A DNA stretch of 7,349 nt from contig JAMPAW010000161.1 of NCBI GenBank assembly GCA_023666975.1, positions 1 through 7,349 of the forward strand, written 5' to 3'. The notes below the pieces were generated by a model, which was not told the origin of the DNA, searched no databases, and saw only the letters and a program-made list of their open reading frames with translations. Shown here in pieces: positions 1 to 7,349 of the stretch (position 1 is its first letter; every line of letters starts with the position of its first letter). The position numbers and the translations under genes are program-made. Source of the stretch: Clostridium sp. (lineage in GTDB: Bacteria > Bacillota_A > Clostridia > Lachnospirales > Lachnospiraceae).

Positions 1-757
1 ACTGATGGTCGATTTTGATAAATTTATTCCTGAAATCTACATTTTCCCAAAGCAGGCCTGTCCCCTCTCCACTGCGGCATCCGGTTTCAAGGAAAAACTC
101 AAACATCCAATAGTATGGACTATATTCTCTGCTTTCCCTGACGAATTTCAAAAACTCCGCCTGCTGTGCCTGTGTAAGTGCATCCCTTTTATTATTGTAA
201 ATGCCAAGCTCTCTTGTACAGCCGTGGGCGTAATTTCTGCGGATATAGTCTTCTGAAACAGCATGGTTGAACATTGCCGATAAGACTTTATGGATAAGGG
301 TGATGCTTCCGTTCCCCACGCCGTCTTCCAGCATTTCCTGATAACAGTCAAGAATATGCGTCTTTCGCACTGCCTGTATGGACATTCCGGCAAAGTTCCG
401 TTTCCTCATGTTTTTATTCCACACCTTTGTATAATTCTCTATGGTACGGACAGTGATTTTCCCACGTTTTTGTTTCATCTTCACATAGAAATCAAACAAT
501 TCATTGACCGTCATGCTGCCATACGAGGCAGCAATCATATCATACCTATCCTGCTCAATTAGTGCCTCCTTCTCACGCAGGGATAATTCCTTTTTCCTGC
601 CCTGCGGCTGCGGGTCGCTCTCCACCAGCCGCCAGCTATACTCCACCTGACGTTCACCGCTCATATTTGTGTAGCGGTACATATAACGTCCATCGCTTCT
701 CTGTAATTCCCCCTTCCTTAAAATTCTTCCTTTTTTATCCCGTCTTTTCTCTGCCAT
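1..757 (-). CDS. int: Tn916-family tyrosine integrase (3' end off window)
   Basis: This is a site-specific tyrosine recombinase that would integrate and excise the element by strand exchange at its ends. The frame is open from the ATG at 755-757 to base 1: 252 codons of a protein normally near 400 residues, so the C-terminal part with the catalytic His, Arg and Tyr is outside. Residues about 1-60 (starting MAEKRRDKKGRIL, then DGRYMYRY and YSWRLV) match the arm-binding domain of Tn916 Int. Residues about 80-170 are the SAM-like core-binding domain. The catalytic domain begins near 195, with the first catalytic Arg at R228 in ETGCRSGEGTGLLW. An AAGGAG site at 766-771 lies 8 nt before the ATG. 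The family call is firm; activity cannot be judged without the rest. Confidence 0.93.
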   Translation of the reverse strand, partial: MAEKRRDKKGRILRKGELQRSDGRYMYRYTNMSGERQVEYSWRLVESDPQPQGRKKELSLREKEALIEQDRYDMIAASYGSMTVNELFDFYVKMKQKRGKITVRTIENYTKVWNKNMRKRNFAGMSIQAVRKTHILDCYQEMLEDGVGNGSITLIHKVLSAMFNHAVSEDYIRRNYAHGCTRELGIYNNKRDALTQAQQAEFLKFVRESREYSPYYWMFEFFLETGCRSGEGTGLLWENVDFRNKFIKIDHQ

Positions 758-775
758 AATATTCGCTCCTTCCAT

Positions 776-826
776 AAAAACGGGAGCTTTGGTACGATAC
801 AATCATTATACCGCACCAAAACTCCC
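776..826 (-). terminator. Intrinsic terminator-like hairpin between xis and int
   Basis: Read on the minus strand, 826 to 782 folds into a 21-bp stem with a 3-nt loop. The outer stem pairs GGGAG with CTCCC and continues without a mismatch if four G-U pairs are allowed. A G and then five T (780-776) follow, as in a rho-independent terminator acting on transcripts leaving xis. The int ribosome site begins only 4 nt after the T-run, so there is no room for a separate int promoter downstream. Int expression would then need read-through or antitermination. The G-U pairs become A-C mismatches on the opposite strand, which favours a function in minus-strand RNA. Confidence 0.7.
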
Positions 827-836
827 TGCGCCATGC

Positions 837-1079
837 CTAAATTACATTTAGTTTGTCAACAAATTCCTCAAACAGCTTTCTCTTTACCTGCGGTCGGTTC
901 CCATTCCACAGGATAAAATCAGCATCCTCATTTTCGCTGATTATTCTGCGCAGCTTTGCCTGACCTATACGGAAGTAGCGGGAGGCTTCTTCTACTGTCA
1001 GGGTGTATTTCTGCCATAAAGGGATTTCTTTGCTGCCTGTAATCTGAGGAATAGCTTTTTGAAATGTTGGATTTTCCAT
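837..1079 (-). CDS. xis: Tn916-type excisionase
   Basis: This is a small winged-helix DNA-binding protein of 80 residues that directs the integrase towards excision. The stretch from about residue 19 to the end (IPLWQKYTLTVEEASRYFRI, then KLRRII and WNGNRPQVKRK) is the typical Tn916 Xis pattern. It has a helix-turn-helix of the MerR/excisionase type and a basic wing near residues 60-68. Tn916 Xis is about 67 residues, and the extra N-terminal residues here precede the conserved part. I chose the ATG at 1077-1079 because an AAGGGG site lies upstream at suitable spacing and the 23 extra upstream codons do not resemble the family. It is followed by the hairpin at 776-826 and then int, with the same orientation. 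Confidence 0.93.
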   Translation of the reverse strand: MENPTFQKAIPQITGSKEIPLWQKYTLTVEEASRYFRIGQAKLRRIISENEDADFILWNGNRPQVKRKLFEEFVDKLNVI

Positions 1080-1146
1080 ATGCCTTGCCCCTTTCCTAAT
1101 CTGGATTAAGCATAGCAGGAAAACAGAAGATGAGCCATTGACTGGC

Positions 1147-1193
1147 ATGGTATTTTTTACGAGATTGTTACCATGATATGGTATCTTTTTGAC
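1147..1193. promoter_or_regulatory. ATGGTA direct and inverted repeats upstream of xis
   Basis: TACCAT (1169-1174) and ATGGTA (1178-1183) form an inverted repeat with a 3-bp spacer. A further ATGGTA at 1147-1152 makes a direct repeat with the right arm, and both ATGGTA copies run into a T-rich stretch ending in AC. The block lies about 70-115 bp upstream of the xis start, where an operator or an Xis/Int accessory site would be expected. I found no convincing -35/-10 pair for xis, so the role is only suggested by position. Confidence 0.35.
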
Positions 1194-1802: not shown

Positions 1803-2072
1803 TCATATAAATTCGACTAATCTCAACTCATAACAACTCTCAACAAAACATTCCACTATTTTATAGCTATCATTCACATCATATGTAGCATTGATATGCT
1901 CGGCTATCTGCAAAATCGTTCTTTTTCCATTAATACACTCCCAAATTAATTTAGAATCCTCATTAAGAGCTAAAATAGGAGTTTTTTTAGAAACTAATAG
2001 TAATCCAAACTCTTCCTCTCTTGCCTTAACAAATTCACTTACTCTAGGAATTTCATTCCCACATATTATCAC
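1803..2072 (-). CDS. PqqD-like RiPP recognition element protein
   Basis: This is a stand-alone PqqD-family protein of 89 residues. The family forms a winged-helix RiPP recognition element that binds the precursor leader and delivers it to the radical SAM enzyme. Family features visible are the beta-rich start (FGLLLVSKKTPILALN) followed by the helix-turn pattern LIWECINGKRTILQIAEHI and a Cys-containing C-terminal helix ending LRLVEFI. The start is set to the GTG at 2070-2072. A frame from the TTG at 2085-2087 would place the strong GGAGGAG ribosome site (2079-2085) inside the coding region, whereas that site is 6 nt from the GTG. It lies just after the second radical SAM gene and ends in TGA at 1803. 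It is the last gene of the operon. Confidence 0.85.
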   Translation of the reverse strand: MIICGNEIPRVSEFVKAREEEFGLLLVSKKTPILALNEDSKLIWECINGKRTILQIAEHINATYDVNDSYKIVECFVESCYELRLVEFI

Positions 2073-2078
2073 TTTTCT

Positions 2079-2085
2079 CTCCTCC
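2079..2085 (-). promoter_or_regulatory. Ribosome site that fixes the pqqD-like start
   Basis: The minus strand reads GGAGGAG here, 6 nt before a GTG codon at 2070-2072. It begins just 5 nt after the stop codon of the preceding radical SAM gene, which fits coupled translation. It supports the shorter 89-residue protein. Confidence 0.75.
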
Positions 2086-2090
2086 AATAC

Positions 2091-3086
2091 TTATAATTTC
2101 ATATTCGGATCTGGACTTCCATCCCATTTACCATTTGACAATGCCGCTGCTCTACACCCTCCATGGCACAATTCAAATTTTTCACATCCTTTGCACTTAT
2201 CTGATACATGTTCGTTTTTTATAAACTTGTTAAAAACAGGAGACTTTTTCTTTATGTCATTAATAGATTTTTCAAGAATATTACCTCCTAATTTTATCCT
2301 CGATAAACCACACACCATAAGTTCACCTGTCACATCCACATAGAAACGATCATATCCATACGAACAGCAATTTGCTAATGACTGTAATTTTTCTGGCAAT
2401 GCACAGAACGGAGTTGCCTCTGCAAATTCTATATGTGGACGCATACCACTTTTATTGTAATTATAAACAATCCGAAAAGCCTCTATCAATTGTTTTTCGG
2501 TTAAAATCAAATCTCTAGCTGTACTGCCTATGCCGATCGGTATAAATCTTGTAATTGTCATAAACTCAAGCCCAATCTCATTCATAGACTTAATTGTAGA
2601 TTCTAACATATGAAAATTAGAACCATTCAACACAAAATTACTAGCCACCATAATTTTCTTTCTATCCAAAAAATACTTTATCGCATTAATCGACCTCTGA
2701 TAGCAATCTTTTACCTGTGTTAATTCTTCGTGGCTATCTTCATCGCCATGAATTGAAATATTAACACTAGTAACATCATAACTATGAATCTTTTCAAGAG
2801 CCTCTTCCGTCATCAAAGACCCATTTGATAATATCACAACATTCGGAAACAACAAACATGCCTTTTCTAATATTTCAAAAAAATGTGGATGCATCAACGG
2901 CTCTCCACCAGTCAAATTAATCTGCATTACTCCCTGCTTTGCAAGCTTCTCTAATATTTCGAAAATACGTTCATTATACCTTGGTTTTTGAGAATTATAA
3001 CAAAACTTACATCTCAAATTGCAAGCCTCTGTTAATTCTACTTGCATAAGCAATGGAGCCATATTTTCTAAATATTCATATGTCAT
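2091..3086 (-). CDS. Radical SAM/SPASM peptide maturase (second enzyme)
   Basis: This radical SAM enzyme of 331 residues is predicted to modify the Cys-rich precursor, by analogy with SPASM enzymes that make thioether or other side-chain crosslinks. The CX3CX2C motif at C22, C26 and C29 (CNLRCKFC) would bind the SAM-cleaving 4Fe-4S cluster, and GGEP at 60-63 would bind SAM. The C-terminal SPASM domain shows C241-X12-G-X4-C259, then CX2CX5CX3C at C298, C301, C307 and C311. The usual last Cys in the ending DPxC is replaced: the protein ends DPNMKL with Met at 329. It has no fused recognition domain, which fits the separate PqqD-like protein next door. It starts 5 nt after the first radical SAM gene and is its clear paralogue. 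The exact reaction cannot be read from sequence. Confidence 0.93.
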   Translation of the reverse strand: MTYEYLENMAPLLMQVELTEACNLRCKFCYNSQKPRYNERIFEILEKLAKQGVMQINLTGGEPLMHPHFFEILEKACLLFPNVVILSNGSLMTEEALEKIHSYDVTSVNISIHGDEDSHEELTQVKDCYQRSINAIKYFLDRKKIMVASNFVLNGSNFHMLESTIKSMNEIGLEFMTITRFIPIGIGSTARDLILTEKQLIEAFRIVYNYNKSGMRPHIEFAEATPFCALPEKLQSLANCCSYGYDRFYVDVTGELMVCGLSRIKLGGNILEKSINDIKKKSPVFNKFIKNEHVSDKCKGCEKFELCHGGCRAAALSNGKWDGSPDPNMKL

Positions 3087-3091
3087 TCTTT

Positions 3092-4072
3092 CTATTTTCC
3101 TTTCTCTACCGCATCATTATAGCCTTTACATCCACCACCACAATACTGCAAATCTGCACATTTTATACATTTTTCATCAAGATGTACATTACAAAAATGA
3201 TTAACACCATCAAACCTATCCCATATAGTTTTTAACGATTCCTTCTTTAAATTTCCCAAAATAGGATATTTTACCAAATTACAAGGAGTTATATCCCCAT
3301 TAGGACCTATAGAAATAGTACACAATCCAATATTACATGCAATATTGCTATCTTGAATATTCTTATGCAACTCTCTTGTTGAATTACACAACTTATATGG
3401 TTGCGGAAAAGCTATTCTGTCAAAACAACTATATTTTTTATTAAACATATAAACCTTAGCAACAGCCTGCAAAAACTGCTGATCTGAAATATCTAAGCCA
3501 TCAGTATTCATTTCACATGGCACATACCTAGTAATTAATACAGACCTTATTCTCATCGTCCTTAGCAAATTATACGTTTCTTCAATATTGTCTATATTCC
3601 TTTTTGATAACATAATATTTACTGCAACATATACATCTTGCCTTTGAAGATTACGTATACCCTGCATTGCTTCATTAAATGCACCTTTCCTACCACTTAA
3701 AATATCATGGTTACCAGAATCACTATCTAAAACAGTAGTACAAATCGAAGGAAAATACTTTGCTATCATCTTTGCATTAAATTCATCTATCAGGCTTGAA
3801 TTTGTATTCATGTGAATGTCTAAGCCACTATCATATGCCACCTTAACTATGTCAAAAAAATCACTTCTAATTAAAGGTTCCCCGCCATTAAAGTTCATAG
3901 ACATAACACCACAAGAGGCTACATCCCTTACAATCTGAATAGCCCCTTGTGTGTTTATTTCCTCATAATAATTATCATCCTTCTCATTATAGCAGAATAT
4001 ACAACGATTATTACACCTATATGTCACCTCATATTGAATATTTAACGGCACATTACATTTTACAACAGACAT
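3092..4072 (-). CDS. Radical SAM/SPASM peptide maturase (first enzyme)
   Basis: This is a 326-residue radical SAM enzyme. CX3CX2C lies at C20, C24 and C27 (CNNRCIFC) and GGEPL at 63-67. The SPASM part has C246/C251, G259-X4-C264, then CX2CX5CX3C at C302, C305, C311 and C315. The chain stops 11 residues after C315, so the usual final SPASM Cys is missing, as in the neighbouring enzyme. The two share blocks such as GVM-x-N-GGEPL, ITR[YF][VI]P and a VY-NK segment, so they arose by duplication. I start at the ATG 4070-4072, four bases after the precursor stop. An in-frame TTG at 4115-4117 would add 15 residues that overlap the precursor tail and resemble nothing in the family. The ribosome site is weak, suggesting translational coupling to the precursor. 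Confidence 0.93.
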   Translation of the reverse strand: MSVVKCNVPLNIQYEVTYRCNNRCIFCYNEKDDNYYEEINTQGAIQIVRDVASCGVMSMNFNGGEPLIRSDFFDIVKVAYDSGLDIHMNTNSSLIDEFNAKMIAKYFPSICTTVLDSDSGNHDILSGRKGAFNEAMQGIRNLQRQDVYVAVNIMLSKRNIDNIEETYNLLRTMRIRSVLITRYVPCEMNTDGLDISDQQFLQAVAKVYMFNKKYSCFDRIAFPQPYKLCNSTRELHKNIQDSNIACNIGLCTISIGPNGDITPCNLVKYPILGNLKKESLKTIWDRFDGVNHFCNVHLDEKCIKCADLQYCGGGCKGYNDAVEKGK

Positions 4073-4076
4073 ATTA

Positions 4077-4304
4077 CTATCTACATGCACAGCATTGACA
4101 TGGTGTACATTTAGCAACTATCTTAGTATTGTCATCAATCATATACTCAACCACCTTTGGTGACACAATAACAAACTTTGTTATCACAACCGGCTGTTCA
4201 TCTGTATTTGAATCTACGAACGGTCTGTTAAACGGATTAAACATCTCGATTTTAGGATTCAAACTTTTATTCCCAATCATTCTTGATTTTTGTGCTGTAT
4301 TCAT
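4077..4304 (-). CDS. Candidate RiPP precursor peptide with Cys-rich tail
   Basis: This 75-residue peptide is the presumed substrate of the two radical SAM enzymes. It has no cysteine in residues 1-65 and then ends KCTPCQCCACR, with C66, C69, C71, C72 and C74 (CX2CXCCXC). Residues 1-35 are polar with NPFNRPF near 23-29. Residues 38-56 are a hydrophobic, beta-prone stretch (PVVITKFVIVSPKVVEYM) that could be the part bound by the PqqD-like protein, and DDNT at 57-60 lies just before the cysteine tail. A cysteine-free leader with a modified C-terminal core is the usual RiPP layout. A GGGAGG ribosome site at 4314-4319 lies 9 nt before the ATG, and a consensus promoter lies upstream. I do not recognise the family. 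A small metal-binding protein is an alternative, but the position directly before two maturases argues for a precursor. Confidence 0.82.
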   Translation of the reverse strand: MNTAQKSRMIGNKSLNPKIEMFNPFNRPFVDSNTDEQPVVITKFVIVSPKVVEYMIDDNTKIVAKCTPCQCCACR

Positions 4305-4350
4305 ATTTCTTTACCTCCCAATAAAAAATTTGTATATTAAATATCGTCTT

Positions 4351-4366
4351 CTATCATCTATTATAG
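4351..4366. promoter_or_regulatory. Imperfect palindrome over the -10 box (possible operator)
   Basis: The pattern CTATNATNNATNATAG is symmetric at 12 of 16 positions. It covers the -10 box and the expected transcription start of the precursor promoter, a classic place for a repressor site. AT-rich DNA yields such matches by chance, and no regulator gene is visible. Confidence 0.25.
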
Positions 4367-4388
4367 ACAACTACCGTTTTTTTGTCAA
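4360..4388 (-). promoter_or_regulatory. Consensus SigA promoter of the precursor operon
   Basis: The minus strand has TTGACA (4383-4388), a 17-bp spacer and TATAAT (4360-4365): both hexamers and the spacing are perfect consensus. Transcription should start near 4353, leaving a leader of about 50 nt before the precursor ATG at 4304. It lies between the uvrA-like stop (4431) and the precursor, so the precursor, both radical SAM genes and the pqqD-like gene can be expressed independently of, and probably more strongly than, the upstream ATPase gene. Confidence 0.85.
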
Positions 4389-4430
4389 TATATGCTGAAA
4401 TATATATTTTTTAACATTTTATGTCGTATG

Positions 4431-6797
4431 CTATGTGCTTAAATTATTATAATACTCATTCAAAACTTTTCCCGTAACAGTATTTTTTTTTGATATTTGC
4501 ATTGGCGTTCCAACCCCTACCACACAACCACCATTTCTCCCCCCCCCTGGTCCTATATCAATAACATAATCACAAGAGGATATAACATCCAAATTATGTT
4601 CTATAATTAGTAATGAATTACCCTTTTTAACTAGTTCTCGCATAACTGAAAGCAATTTTTTCACATCTTGAAAATGCAACCCTTTCGTTGGTTCATCAAA
4701 AATTACCATTGTGCCAGCAGTATTAGTCTTTGCTATCTCTGCTGCCAATTTTAATCTCTGGCTTTCACCACCAGATAATGTAGATGTTGATTGTCCCAAC
4801 TTTATATATCCCAAACCAACACGTTGTATCGCCAATAATTTTAATTTAACTGTTTGATTTTCAGCAAAATATCCAATTGCCTCATCTACACTTAACTCCA
4901 AAACATCAAATATAGATAAATTTTTATACTTAACATCTAATATTTTGCTCTTAAATCTCTTTCCATCACACATATCACATATTACTGGCATTTCTGGCAA
5001 AAACCCCATGTTGATTTTCACATATCCCTCACCCTTGCACTTTTCACATCTCCCTCCATCCACATTAAAACTAAACATAGAGTCAGATATCTTCATTTTT
5101 TTTGCCTTTTCTTGTTCAGAAAAAATCTTTCTAATCGCCTCCCAAATATCAAGATAAGTAACCGGGCATGAGCGTGAAGATTTTCCAATTGGCGACTGAT
5201 CACACAAAACAATATGTTTAACCAAATCCCTGTTTTCAACATTTTCTAATCCAATATTTTTTTTATAATGTAGACTTTGATACAATGAATCAAACACTAA
5301 CGAGGTTTTCCCTGATCCTGAAACACCTGTAAAGCAAACCATAGCACCCAATGGAATTTCAATATTTATATTTTTCAAATTATTACTGTTAACATTAATA
5401 AGTTTTAAGCTTTTGCCGATTATATAATCATTATTATAATTAACTTTTGAAGCCCTTTCTTTTCCAGATAAATATTTGCCAGAAATTGAATTTGCATCAT
5501 TCTTGATTTCTTCAACTGTTCCCTGTGAAACAATTTTTCCGCCATTAACGCCCGCCCCTGGTCCAATTTCAAAAATATAATCACACGCATTAATTATTTT
5601 GGCAGTATGTTCTACCAAAACAACTGTATTTTTATTACCAATATTATTTAATTTGCAGATTGCTTTCAACACTTTATCTATATCTGACATATGTAAACCA
5701 CAAGAAGGTTCATCCAAAACATATACCACACCAGAAATTTCACTAGATATCTGCGAAACCAACTTTAGTCTTTGAATCTCACCGCCTGACAATGTTGTCG
5801 ATTTTCTTGCCAATGATAAATATCCTACACCCAAATCAACGCATAGTCTCAAATTACGAAAAAATTTACCTTTTATCTGTTCAAAAATATTATCTCTGCT
5901 ATCATCAAAATGCATTTTTTCCATAACTAACAGCATTTCTTCTATTGGAAGATTCATATAATAATCAATATTCCTCCCAGCTATAGTGATGTCTAAAATC
6001 TTCGGGTTGTATCCAGTTCCACTACATCCTTCACATTTACTTTTTGTCATAAAAGATTCTAACTTTTCTCTCGTTTTCAAGCTTTTTGTTGTTTTGTACT
6101 GTTTTTCGCTTTCACAAATAATTCCTGGAAATTCTACTTTATACTTTTTATTTTTCTTTTGTCCAAATAGCAATGCAACTTTTACTTCATTTGAGTAATT
6201 CTCAATAGGCGTATTAACATCAAACCCATACTGCTGCAAAAACGAATTATAAAAATTCATTTTCATGGATCCAGGCTTTGCTCCAGATAACTTTATACCA
6301 CCTTTAGCCATCGAAAGTTTTTGATCAGGCCATATTAATGTCTCATCAAACCTCAAAATTTCGCCTGTTCCATTACACTCCTCACATCCTCCTGCAGGAG
6401 AATTTAAATTAAACATTGATGGTGTTAATGTTAATTTTCCTCTGTTTTCACCACAAGACGAAAACAAAACTTGAAGAAAATATGCAATCTGTGATATTGA
6501 GCCCACTGTACTTCTTGAATTTCTAACAGCAGAATTTTGTACTAATGCAATTGCTGGTGGAATTCCCACAAAATAATCTGCATCTGGTTTTTTTATTTTT
6601 GACAAGAAATATGATTCATTTACCCCTAATGATTCAATATATCTTCTTTTTCCTTCAGCATATAATGTATCAAATACAACTGTTGATTTACCAGATCCTG
6701 ATACTCCAATAAAGCATACTATTTTAGAATACGGAATTGTGACATCTATGTTCTTTAAATTGTTTTCTTTACATCCATACATCGATATACCATTCAT
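4431..6797 (-). CDS. UvrA-like double-ABC ATPase, probable self-resistance
   Basis: This 788-residue protein has the two ATP-binding modules of UvrA, the damage-recognising DNA-binding ATPase. Module 1 has Walker A GVSGSGKST (31-39), signature LSGGEIQR (336-343), Walker B VVYVLDEP (357-364) and H397. Module 2 has Walker A GVSGSGKTS (491-499), LSGGESQR (674-681), MVIFDEP (697-703) and H734. Zinc modules lie at C138/C141 with C255/C258, and at C584/C587 with C607/C610. Canonical UvrA is about 940 residues. Here the roughly 120 residues that bind UvrB, between RLLF- and FSFNNPAG-like motifs, are absent (FLQVLFSSCGE leads almost directly to FNLNSPAGGC). That is the form of UvrA2 and drug-resistance proteins such as DrrC and Ecm16. 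AGGAGG stands 7 nt before the ATG. The gene starts 39 nt after the upstream gene and probably shares its transcript. A role in self-protection is inferred from context. Confidence 0.92.
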   Translation of the reverse strand: MNGISMYGCKENNLKNIDVTIPYSKIVCFIGVSGSGKSTVVFDTLYAEGKRRYIESLGVNESYFLSKIKKPDADYFVGIPPAIALVQNSAVRNSRSTVGSISQIAYFLQVLFSSCGENRGKLTLTPSMFNLNSPAGGCEECNGTGEILRFDETLIWPDQKLSMAKGGIKLSGAKPGSMKMNFYNSFLQQYGFDVNTPIENYSNEVKVALLFGQKKNKKYKVEFPGIICESEKQYKTTKSLKTREKLESFMTKSKCEGCSGTGYNPKILDITIAGRNIDYYMNLPIEEMLLVMEKMHFDDSRDNIFEQIKGKFFRNLRLCVDLGVGYLSLARKSTTLSGGEIQRLKLVSQISSEISGVVYVLDEPSCGLHMSDIDKVLKAICKLNNIGNKNTVVLVEHTAKIINACDYIFEIGPGAGVNGGKIVSQGTVEEIKNDANSISGKYLSGKERASKVNYNNDYIIGKSLKLINVNSNNLKNINIEIPLGAMVCFTGVSGSGKTSLVFDSLYQSLHYKKNIGLENVENRDLVKHIVLCDQSPIGKSSRSCPVTYLDIWEAIRKIFSEQEKAKKMKISDSMFSFNVDGGRCEKCKGEGYVKINMGFLPEMPVICDMCDGKRFKSKILDVKYKNLSIFDVLELSVDEAIGYFAENQTVKLKLLAIQRVGLGYIKLGQSTSTLSGGESQRLKLAAEIAKTNTAGTMVIFDEPTKGLHFQDVKKLLSVMRELVKKGNSLLIIEHNLDVISSCDYVIDIGPGGGRNGGCVVGVGTPMQISKKNTVTGKVLNEYYNNLST
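4539..4547 (-). repeat. Run of nine G in the coding strand of the uvrA-like gene
   Basis: A nine-base G run encodes Gly-Gly-Gly at residues 751-753 of the UvrA-like protein, in an otherwise AT-rich gene. A one-base slip would change the last 35 or so residues. Such runs can drive phase variation, but one sequence cannot show it. Confidence 0.6.
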
Positions 6798-6836: not shown

Positions 6837-7349
6837 TTATGGCACAAACTGAACACTCATTTCATCTGAAATATTATATTTTAAATCAGATAATTTGTAA
6901 TACTTGAATTTCTTTCTCGCTTTAACATTATTTAATATTTCCAAAAGTTCAGATATGCTCTCTTCATTATTTGCTCCTAAATCAATGTGCAAAACCTCAT
7001 CAATTATTTTTTGCGACACATTCAAAAACACTATCACATTATTATAAAAATCAAGATATATATATTCATCGCATTTATCAATACAATTACGTTCTTTCAC
7101 ATAAACACAATCTTTTATTTTAAATTTTTCACCAAATAAACTATTATATTTATTTTTATTAATAATCAAATATTTATTTCGCTTACAATTTTCTCTTTGC
7201 TCATTAAAAATATTAGCAGAATAATACTCAAAATTTGTTTGTGCATAATCCTTTAAAATATCTCCGATGTGCATAATATCCTTATATAAATCATCATATT
7301 CTTTCTCATCGTTATATACATAATCAATAATTCTCTGATACTCGTTATC
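6837..7349 (-). CDS. Unrecognised AT-rich protein (5' end probably off window)
   Basis: I do not recognise this protein. The frame stays open from its TAA at 6837-6839 to the right edge (171 codons, 170 residues visible), so it is most likely the C-terminal part of a longer protein. An internal ATG at 7272-7274 has AAGGA 4 nt upstream and would give 145 residues, so a shorter protein is possible. The visible part is rich in Asn, Lys, Tyr, Ile and Asp. It has four cysteines (the group DCVYVKERNCIDKCDE, plus one earlier), a likely beta segment YLDFYNNVIVFLNV and an acidic helix (NNEESISELLEILNNV). It has no membrane segment or signal peptide in the visible part. It ends 39 nt before the uvrA-like gene and is likely in the same operon. 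Its base composition is even more AT-rich than its neighbours. Confidence 0.75.
   Translation of the reverse strand, partial: DNEYQRIIDYVYNDEKEYDDLYKDIMHIGDILKDYAQTNFEYYSANIFNEQRENCKRNKYLIINKNKYNSLFGEKFKIKDCVYVKERNCIDKCDEYIYLDFYNNVIVFLNVSQKIIDEVLHIDLGANNEESISELLEILNNVKARKKFKYYKLSDLKYNISDEMSVQFVP

Follow-up and report, generated by a model that had tools for sequence, protein, structure and literature searches.

A candidate RiPP gene cluster with an adjoining UvrA-like gene

The window analysed here, a stretch of 7349 bases from a Clostridium sp. of the Lachnospiraceae that appears to be one whole contig, carries a compact group of genes for a candidate ribosomally synthesized and post-translationally modified peptide (RiPP). 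The gene for a short precursor peptide is followed by genes for two radical S-adenosylmethionine (SAM) enzymes with SPASM domains and for a PqqD-type protein, and a gene for a UvrA-like ABC ATPase lies directly upstream. The genes, order, coordinates and shared orientation given in an earlier note on this DNA were all confirmed, and all cluster genes are on the minus strand. The earlier note called the operon complete, having overlooked a third radical SAM gene, putatively of the B12 type, that is truncated at the window edge; it also overlooked Tn916-type xis and int genes downstream of the PqqD-type gene. The cluster comprises the following features.

6837..7349, minus strand: third, putatively B12-type radical SAM enzyme, C-terminal 170 codons, 5′ end cut by the contig edge
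4431..6797, minus strand: UvrA-like ABC ATPase, 788 aa, without UvrB-binding domain (domain scans and alignment)
4360..4388, minus strand: sigma-70-type promoter-like site TTGACA-17-TATAAT, 12/12 (promoter scan)
4077..4304, minus strand: precursor peptide gene, 75 aa (64 homologues, its own included, and alignments)
4080..4118, minus strand: codons of the invariant C-terminal VAKCTPCQCCACR, putative core (64/64 identical)
3092..4072, minus strand: radical SAM/SPASM enzyme 1 (maturase 1, rSAM1), 326 aa (Pfam Radical_SAM and SPASM)
2091..3086, minus strand: radical SAM/SPASM enzyme 2 (maturase 2), 331 aa (29% identity to enzyme 1; Pfam)
1803..2087, minus strand: PqqD-type protein, stand-alone RiPP recognition element (RRE) (Pfam PF05402)

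The precursor and maturase 1 genes are separated by 4 nt and the two maturase genes by 5 nt, in agreement with the spacing of 0-5 nt claimed previously. For the PqqD-type gene that claim probably fails, as the gap is 3 nt with a TTG start at 2087 but 18 nt with the GTG at 2072, which stands behind a GGAGG and, read by eye, is the likelier start. The perfect promoter reported before the precursor gene was found again: TTGACA-17-TATAAT at 4388-4360 is the sole 12/12 match in the window, where promoter-like matches overall show no excess (40 observed versus 37.4, sd 5.9, in shuffles). Because this site sits between the UvrA-like and precursor genes, the UvrA-like gene is probably a separate transcription unit upstream of the precursor operon.

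The precursor ends in an invariant cysteine-rich core

A protein search found 64 precursor homologues, the window's own included, and the C-terminal VAKCTPCQCCACR was identical in 64/64; no homologue lacking the cysteine tail was among them, in a word-based search that favours tail-bearing relatives. One of these 64 protein clusters alone represents 165 contigs. The tail of the window precursor is KIVAKCTPCQCCACR, and in alignments the leader retains the prolines and phenylalanines of a motif close to PxIxMFxPFxxPF. Among 84,980 species genomes scanned, two precursor loci were found, one in a metagenome-assembled genome (G001) from the Lachnospiraceae (L001, ending at a contig edge) and one in a Spirochaetia genome (L002).

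Two comparisons bear on the constancy of the core. First, in the 16 contigs matched for three genes, identities ranged from 38-76% for leaders, 42-79% for rSAM1 and 51-81% for the UvrA-like protein, so leader and maturase 1 fall as low as about 40% identity while the core stays fixed. Second, 12 of the 13 core codons vary synonymously among the window, L001 and L002, with zero amino-acid changes. Synonymous variation in an unchanged core behind diverged leaders argues that the core peptide is held by selection, and the same two observations disfavour pure search bias as the source of its constancy.

Maturation enzymes and a stand-alone recognition element

Maturase 1 contains the motifs CX3CX2C at 20, CX12GX4C at 246 and CX2CX5CX3C at 302, and all three are present in 6/6 SPASM enzymes of the window, L001 and L002; among these six, only L002 maturase 2 has a further cysteine after the six SPASM cysteines. 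Maturase 2 is 58-59% identical to its L002 orthologue. The best solved-structure match of maturase 1 is SkfB (6efn, E 3.4e-26), and the SkfB model gave maturase 2 a score of 116.8 of the 300 bits needed. A relative of maturase 1 in Thermogutta terrifontis (P0147, 37% identity) is labelled as a heme biosynthesis radical SAM protein. No RRE domain was found in maturase 1 in a profile scan. The window PqqD-like protein matched PF05402 (E 1.5e-6, 28.8 bits versus a cut-off of 23.4) and is 42% and 40% identical to its homologues in L001 and L002, respectively.

The open reading frame (ORF) at the window edge (7349-6837) matches the L001 B12-type radical SAM enzyme at its C-terminus (43% identity in 56 aa, E 3e-13) and gave no significant pairwise match to that of L002; the L001 and L002 enzymes are 29% identical to each other across most of their length. 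Both full-length enzymes match TIGR03975, PhpK, HpnJ and other B12-radical SAM models below cut-offs, with TIGR03975 (RiPP maturation radical SAM C-methyltransferase) giving E 2.8e-25 and 88.9 of 281.85 bits for the L002 enzyme. The Pfam B12-binding model PF02310 scored 20.5 bits for the L001 enzyme, below its cut-off of 32.1, and did not match the L002 enzyme. The matches listed for an AF2 model of the L002 enzyme, of low confidence (pLDDT 58.6), include MgmA, AprD4 and TsrM together with many B12-free radical SAM enzymes. With reservation, these similarities suggest that the third enzyme is a B12-type radical SAM enzyme.

The UvrA-like ATPase lacks the UvrB-binding domain

In the UvrA-like protein the two ATPase sites are retained, as are zinc modules 2 and 3; the lysines of Walker A, the DE pairs of Walker B and eight zinc cysteines are identical in 56/56 rows of alignment A3. 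The UvrB-binding domain is missing: query residues 116 and 118 align to UvrA residues 138 and 276, and the model of this domain, PF17760, was not matched by the cluster UvrA-likes in profile scans. G001 also carries its own canonical UvrA, with PF17760, beside UvrB. In a 37-row tree the cluster UvrA-likes form one clade (support 100/100), apart from plasmid UvrA-likes of Streptomyces, Staphylococcus, Enterococcus and Paenibacillus.

UvrA-likes without the UvrB-binding domain are described as self-resistance proteins against DNA-binding drugs in producer clusters for echinomycin, daunorubicin, mithramycin and others (PMC10192343, PMC10413001). The affinity of Ecm16 for DNA is higher when the DNA carries echinomycin (11.8 versus 60.2 nM for free DNA), and the loaded DNA stimulates the Ecm16 ATPase (PMC10192343). 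UvrA-like genes have served as markers of DNA intercalators in actinobacteria, and RiPPs are among eight cluster classes found near uvrA or uvrA-like genes (PMC10413001). The window protein aligns with Ecm16 (7SH1) across residues 4-783. It resembles Ecm16 and DrrC in its UvrA fold, intact ATPase sites, zinc modules 2 and 3, missing UvrB-binding domain and position beside a biosynthetic cluster. Ecm16 and DrrC belong to actinobacterial clusters, whereas the window type accompanies a RiPP cluster in Lachnospiraceae and Spirochaetia and is nearer in sequence to canonical UvrA.

PADLOC matched the UvrA-like protein to mad3 (E 1.2e-66, in four stretches of the 374-position model), mad8 (7.8e-20) and other ATPase models, the L001 methyltransferase (3009-3785) to mad2 (E 6.5e-11), and the maturases to radical SAM (viperin) models; mad2, mad3 and mad8 are all components of the 'mads' system. 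These matches may reflect general ABC-ATPase and methyltransferase similarity, and any UvrA would probably match mad3. Reading them as general similarity, we set anti-phage defence aside as the explanation of the cluster.

The gene set recurs and the UvrA-like gene is co-inherited with maturase 1

The gene order in L001 is precursor, maturase 1, maturase 2, PqqD, methyltransferase, B12-type radical SAM and UvrA-like, and L002 has the same set minus the methyltransferase. The L001 methyltransferase gene (L001:3009-3785, Pfam Methyltransf_11) lies between the PqqD and B12-type radical SAM genes. In the window, by contrast, the B12-type and UvrA-like pair stands first. The earlier note had proposed to look for recurrence of the arrangement; the full gene set recurs, with the difference in order just given. 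Both radical SAM genes adjoin the precursor gene in both fetched loci; precursor homologues without such neighbours had been named as evidence that would count against a RiPP operon.

We also examined co-occurrence among protein homologues, taking rows with an identical longest-contig size as coming from the same contig, which is an assumption and not proof. The rows comprised 90 of the 120 listed rSAM1 homologues (P0065-P0154; the last 30, at ≤30% identity, were omitted), 64 UvrA-likes (63 full length and the fragment P0248) and 55 canonical UvrAs (the fragment P0267 was omitted). Precursor rows co-occurred with rSAM1 in 24/64 cases and with a UvrA-like in 21/64, and all three coincided in 16. 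By contrast, 0/55 canonical UvrA rows matched any precursor row; one coincidence (21819) paired a UvrA-like row with a canonical one. For precursors with a longest contig of ≥6000 bases, 24 of 33 matched rSAM1 or a UvrA-like and nine matched neither. Distances among rSAM1 proteins closely tracked those among UvrA-likes (Mantel r 0.947; n = 22 contigs matched for both), and 0/9999 permutations gave a value as high. Judged by these distances, the UvrA-like gene belongs to the cluster and is inherited together with it; the earlier note had its position right but treated it as a mere neighbour.

The system is rare and patchy in genomes. A family-level scan with precursor alignment A2 across 397 relatives of G001 gave two matches at E ≤1e-3, one of them G001 itself; the second match, G305, covered only model positions 4-50 (E 5.1e-4) and was provisionally taken as chance. 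Scans of the order with maturase 2 (1/392), of the genus (1/77) and of the phylum (1/398) gave only G001.

UvrA-like genes in other settings

On a plasmid of Campylobacter sp. RM16187 (NZ_CP012551.1, L006:6298-10100), two FibroRumin precursors (TIGR04135), a maturase (TIGR04136, 707 bits) and a UvrA-like protein are encoded in an overlapping gene run; P0305 and P0306 are translations from this locus. The UvrA-like gene overlaps the maturase gene, and its 697-aa product, annotated 'hypothetical protein', lies far from the cluster clade in the tree. Its distant tree position and 27% identity to the cluster UvrA-like indicate that it was probably recruited independently. FibroRumin loci resemble the window cluster in their short cysteine-rich precursor, radical SAM maturase and, on this plasmid, UvrA-like overlap. 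They differ in having a single 469-aa maturase with only distant similarity to the window maturases, two precursors with different cores and another cysteine pattern, and no PqqD or B12 enzyme annotated alongside.

The window cluster is not a FibroRumin member by profile, as its precursor gave no TIGR04135 match at E ≤1 and TIGR04136 was absent among the best 25 models for each maturase. FibroRumin itself matched once among 391 Clostridia genomes. In viral contigs, the FibroRumin maturase query found one locus at 25% identity (L007) and the FibroRumin UvrA-like query found no match. The association with a UvrA-like gene held in 1/2 FibroRumin loci, so we rejected FibroRumin as a general UvrA-like partner and regard the pairing as a suggestive parallel, not a rule.

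Other plasmids carry UvrA-likes without the UvrB-binding domain in different company. On a Staphylococcus cohnii plasmid (NZ_CP120000.1, L010:4428-12212) such a gene stands among the formaldehyde-assimilation genes hxlA and hxlB and an alcohol dehydrogenase gene, and UvrA-likes of this type may serve aldehyde-damage tolerance. On an Enterococcus faecium plasmid (NZ_CP097023.1, L011:3189-6241) another follows a class II bacteriocin gene of the leucocin A/sakacin P type at a distance of a few hundred bases.

Relation to known RiPP systems

The cluster has general marks of radical SAM RiPPs: its radical SAM genes adjoin that of a short precursor whose leader and core are conserved, and it encodes a PqqD-type RRE. 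We found no known RiPP class above its profile cut-off, and the earlier note's view that the locus matches no named class stands. The precursor reached no cut-off in Pfam or NCBIfam (best chance matches E 0.036 and 0.043), and neither maturase reached that of any NCBIfam model among the best 25 listed for each. On the latter scope, membership in the SkfB, StsB, PapB and AlbA maturase families was rejected. Membership in the PQQ and mycofactocin systems was likewise rejected (PqqE 107 of 381 bits, MftC 114 of 265, PqqD 18.8 of 46, MftB 14.6 of 33). Those two pathways use a precursor, a stand-alone PqqD/MftB-type protein, a SPASM radical SAM enzyme and a conserved core; the window cluster differs from them in its cysteine-rich core, two SPASM enzymes plus a B12-type enzyme, and UvrA-like partner.

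SPASM radical SAM enzymes also act on cysteine-containing peptides in the case of the ruminococcin C sactipeptides, which have two radical SAM enzymes, and SkfB. As described, RumMC1 and RumMC2 each include an RRE domain and have seven SPASM cysteines (PMC8188230), whereas the window cluster has its RRE as a separate protein, six SPASM cysteines and an invariant core. No description of the family was found in the literature searched, among the matches listed with titles and abstract beginnings, and the 10-letter core string and FibroRumin gave no match there.

A proposed DNA-acting product and alternative explanations

At roughly even probability, we favour the explanation that the cluster represents a new family of radical-SAM RiPPs whose single fixed product acts on DNA, with the UvrA-like protein giving self-protection. 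The RiPP part of this explanation is well supported; the DNA part we infer by analogy with the UvrA-likes of drug producers. In the proposed pathway, the stand-alone PqqD-type protein would bind the leader through its conserved motif and present the invariant cysteine-rich tail (K)CTPCQCCACR to both radical SAM/SPASM enzymes, which would most likely cross-link cysteines via thioether bonds. The B12-type enzyme would add a further change, probably C-methylation, and in one locus the extra methyltransferase may contribute. The single fixed product would act on DNA, and the UvrA-like ATPase, being without the UvrB-binding part, would recognize product-loaded DNA and clear the product using ATP, protecting the producer as proposed for Ecm16. 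A DNA target could explain the frozen core, because DNA as a target does not evolve.

In its most specific form, which we advance tentatively and at somewhat less than even probability, the proposal is that a single, unchanging, multiply cross-linked cysteine-rich peptide defines a new RiPP class, that it binds or intercalates DNA and is stripped from it by an independently evolved UvrB-free UvrA, and that such guarded, DNA-targeting radical SAM peptides arose at least twice, here and at a FibroRumin locus. If true, this would be a new sort of DNA-targeting natural product; direct DNA-binding RiPPs are, to our knowledge, hardly known. The cluster joins a RiPP with the UvrA-like marker, and its product sequence is fixed across Lachnospiraceae and Spirochaetia. 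With the core fixed, synthesis and mass spectrometry have a single defined target of 10 to 15 residues and self-protection becomes testable, and a UvrB-less UvrA beside radical SAM genes provides a mining handle for anaerobes beyond the actinobacterial survey.

Several observations weigh against a DNA-acting product with a UvrA-like guard. First, the function of the UvrA-like protein is argued from anatomy, not orthology: by phmmer it is closer to canonical UvrA (best 692 bits) than to Ecm16 (396 bits), and in the tree, built without Ecm16 and DrrC sequences, the cluster clade joins canonical UvrA on a weak branch (91/81) with long branches flagged. Second, among 892 matched plasmid records, five UvrA-like loci were opened and four had no adjoining radical SAM RiPP; these four UvrA-likes (753-837 aa) are without PF17760, and the remaining plasmid UvrA-likes without that domain stand among unrelated genes. 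Third, a second FibroRumin locus contained no UvrA-like within 16 kb, where two UvrA-like queries reached E 0.39 at best in tblastn. Fourth, the precursor search relies on shared 5-residue words, many of them from the cysteine tail, and relatives with another core could escape it. Fifth, the mad3 and mad2 matches may leave room for a role in defence. Two further points, the lack of a recognized exporter or protease and the invariance of the core, also speak for the first alternative below.

That alternative, the main rival, which we consider unlikely but deserving of real weight, keeps the processed peptide inside the cell, as happens with PQQ and mycofactocin precursors. There the peptide, perhaps metal-loaded, would be bound by the UvrA-like ATPase as a ligand or would serve it as a cofactor; the ATPase in turn would protect DNA or act in defence, and the system would be a cargo of mobile elements. 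Invariance of the core is a feature more often seen in cofactor-like RiPPs, and a stand-alone PqqD with SPASM enzymes is also the arrangement of PQQ biosynthesis. Among the ORFs listed for the window, L001 and L002, no exporter or protease was recognized (by eye and among the genes scanned; the window and L001 are cut by contig ends), a result that fits a secreted antibiotic badly. The Tn916-type context, the co-inheritance of the UvrA-like with the maturase, and the mad3, mad8 and mad2 matches (the last to the L001 methyltransferase) under one defence-system name point the same way. Against this alternative, those matches may be general similarity, L002 is without the methyltransferase, and we know of no peptide-dependent UvrA. 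UvrB-less UvrA-likes within biosynthetic clusters are, moreover, described as self-resistance proteins (PMC10192343, PMC10413001).

A further alternative, to which we give a rather small probability, accepts the RiPP but has the UvrA-like serve general DNA-damage tolerance or deal with a damaging side product, with the peptide itself acting on the membrane, metal uptake or signalling. Cysteine-rich radical SAM RiPPs mostly have other or unknown targets, and UvrB-less UvrA-likes do occur among formaldehyde genes and in unrelated plasmid contexts, but the monophyletic cluster clade, descending in parallel with the maturase, speaks for a specific partnership. Finally, small ORFs arise easily by chance and the window alone would be insufficient to exclude chance neighbours, either a small ORF that is no precursor or genes that are not one system; this is very improbable given 64 homologues, synonymous-only change in the core and the same gene set in Lachnospiraceae and Spirochaetia, and it is contradicted by the contig co-occurrence of precursor, rSAM1 and UvrA-like and by the Mantel result.

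Mobile-element context

Two genes downstream of the PqqD-type gene are of the Tn916 type.

837..1148, minus strand: Tn916-type excisionase gene xis (PF09035, E 2.9e-22)
2..802, minus strand: Tn916-type integrase gene int, cut by the contig end (PF02920, E 1.1e-27)

In L002, G+C is 0.36-0.49 for the cluster genes, 0.54-0.60 for the two downstream genes and 0.31 for the upstream gene. From this contrast, the Tn916-type genes in the window and the patchy spread of the system, we infer that the cluster is horizontally mobile. In plasmids, maturase 1 found identities of ≤27.8% throughout the best 20 of 330 records, and the int/xis stretch had no near match. Carriage by phages or viruses was rejected, as no precursor relative was found in phages or IMG/VR.

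Three smaller observations concern the surroundings of the cluster. In L002 (6583-11428) the UvrA-like gene lies ~300 nt before uvrB and is much lower in G+C (0.41 versus 0.60), which could mark an insertion beside uvrB or be chance. Upstream of xis, the window contains two 93-nt direct repeats (1259-1458; 84% alike, 107 nt apart) that consist of GTGTAGG...CCTACAC inverted repeats and are perhaps binding sites of Tn916-type recombination proteins. Between xis and int, a T run follows a 20-pair inverted repeat (782-826), an arrangement like that of a terminator.

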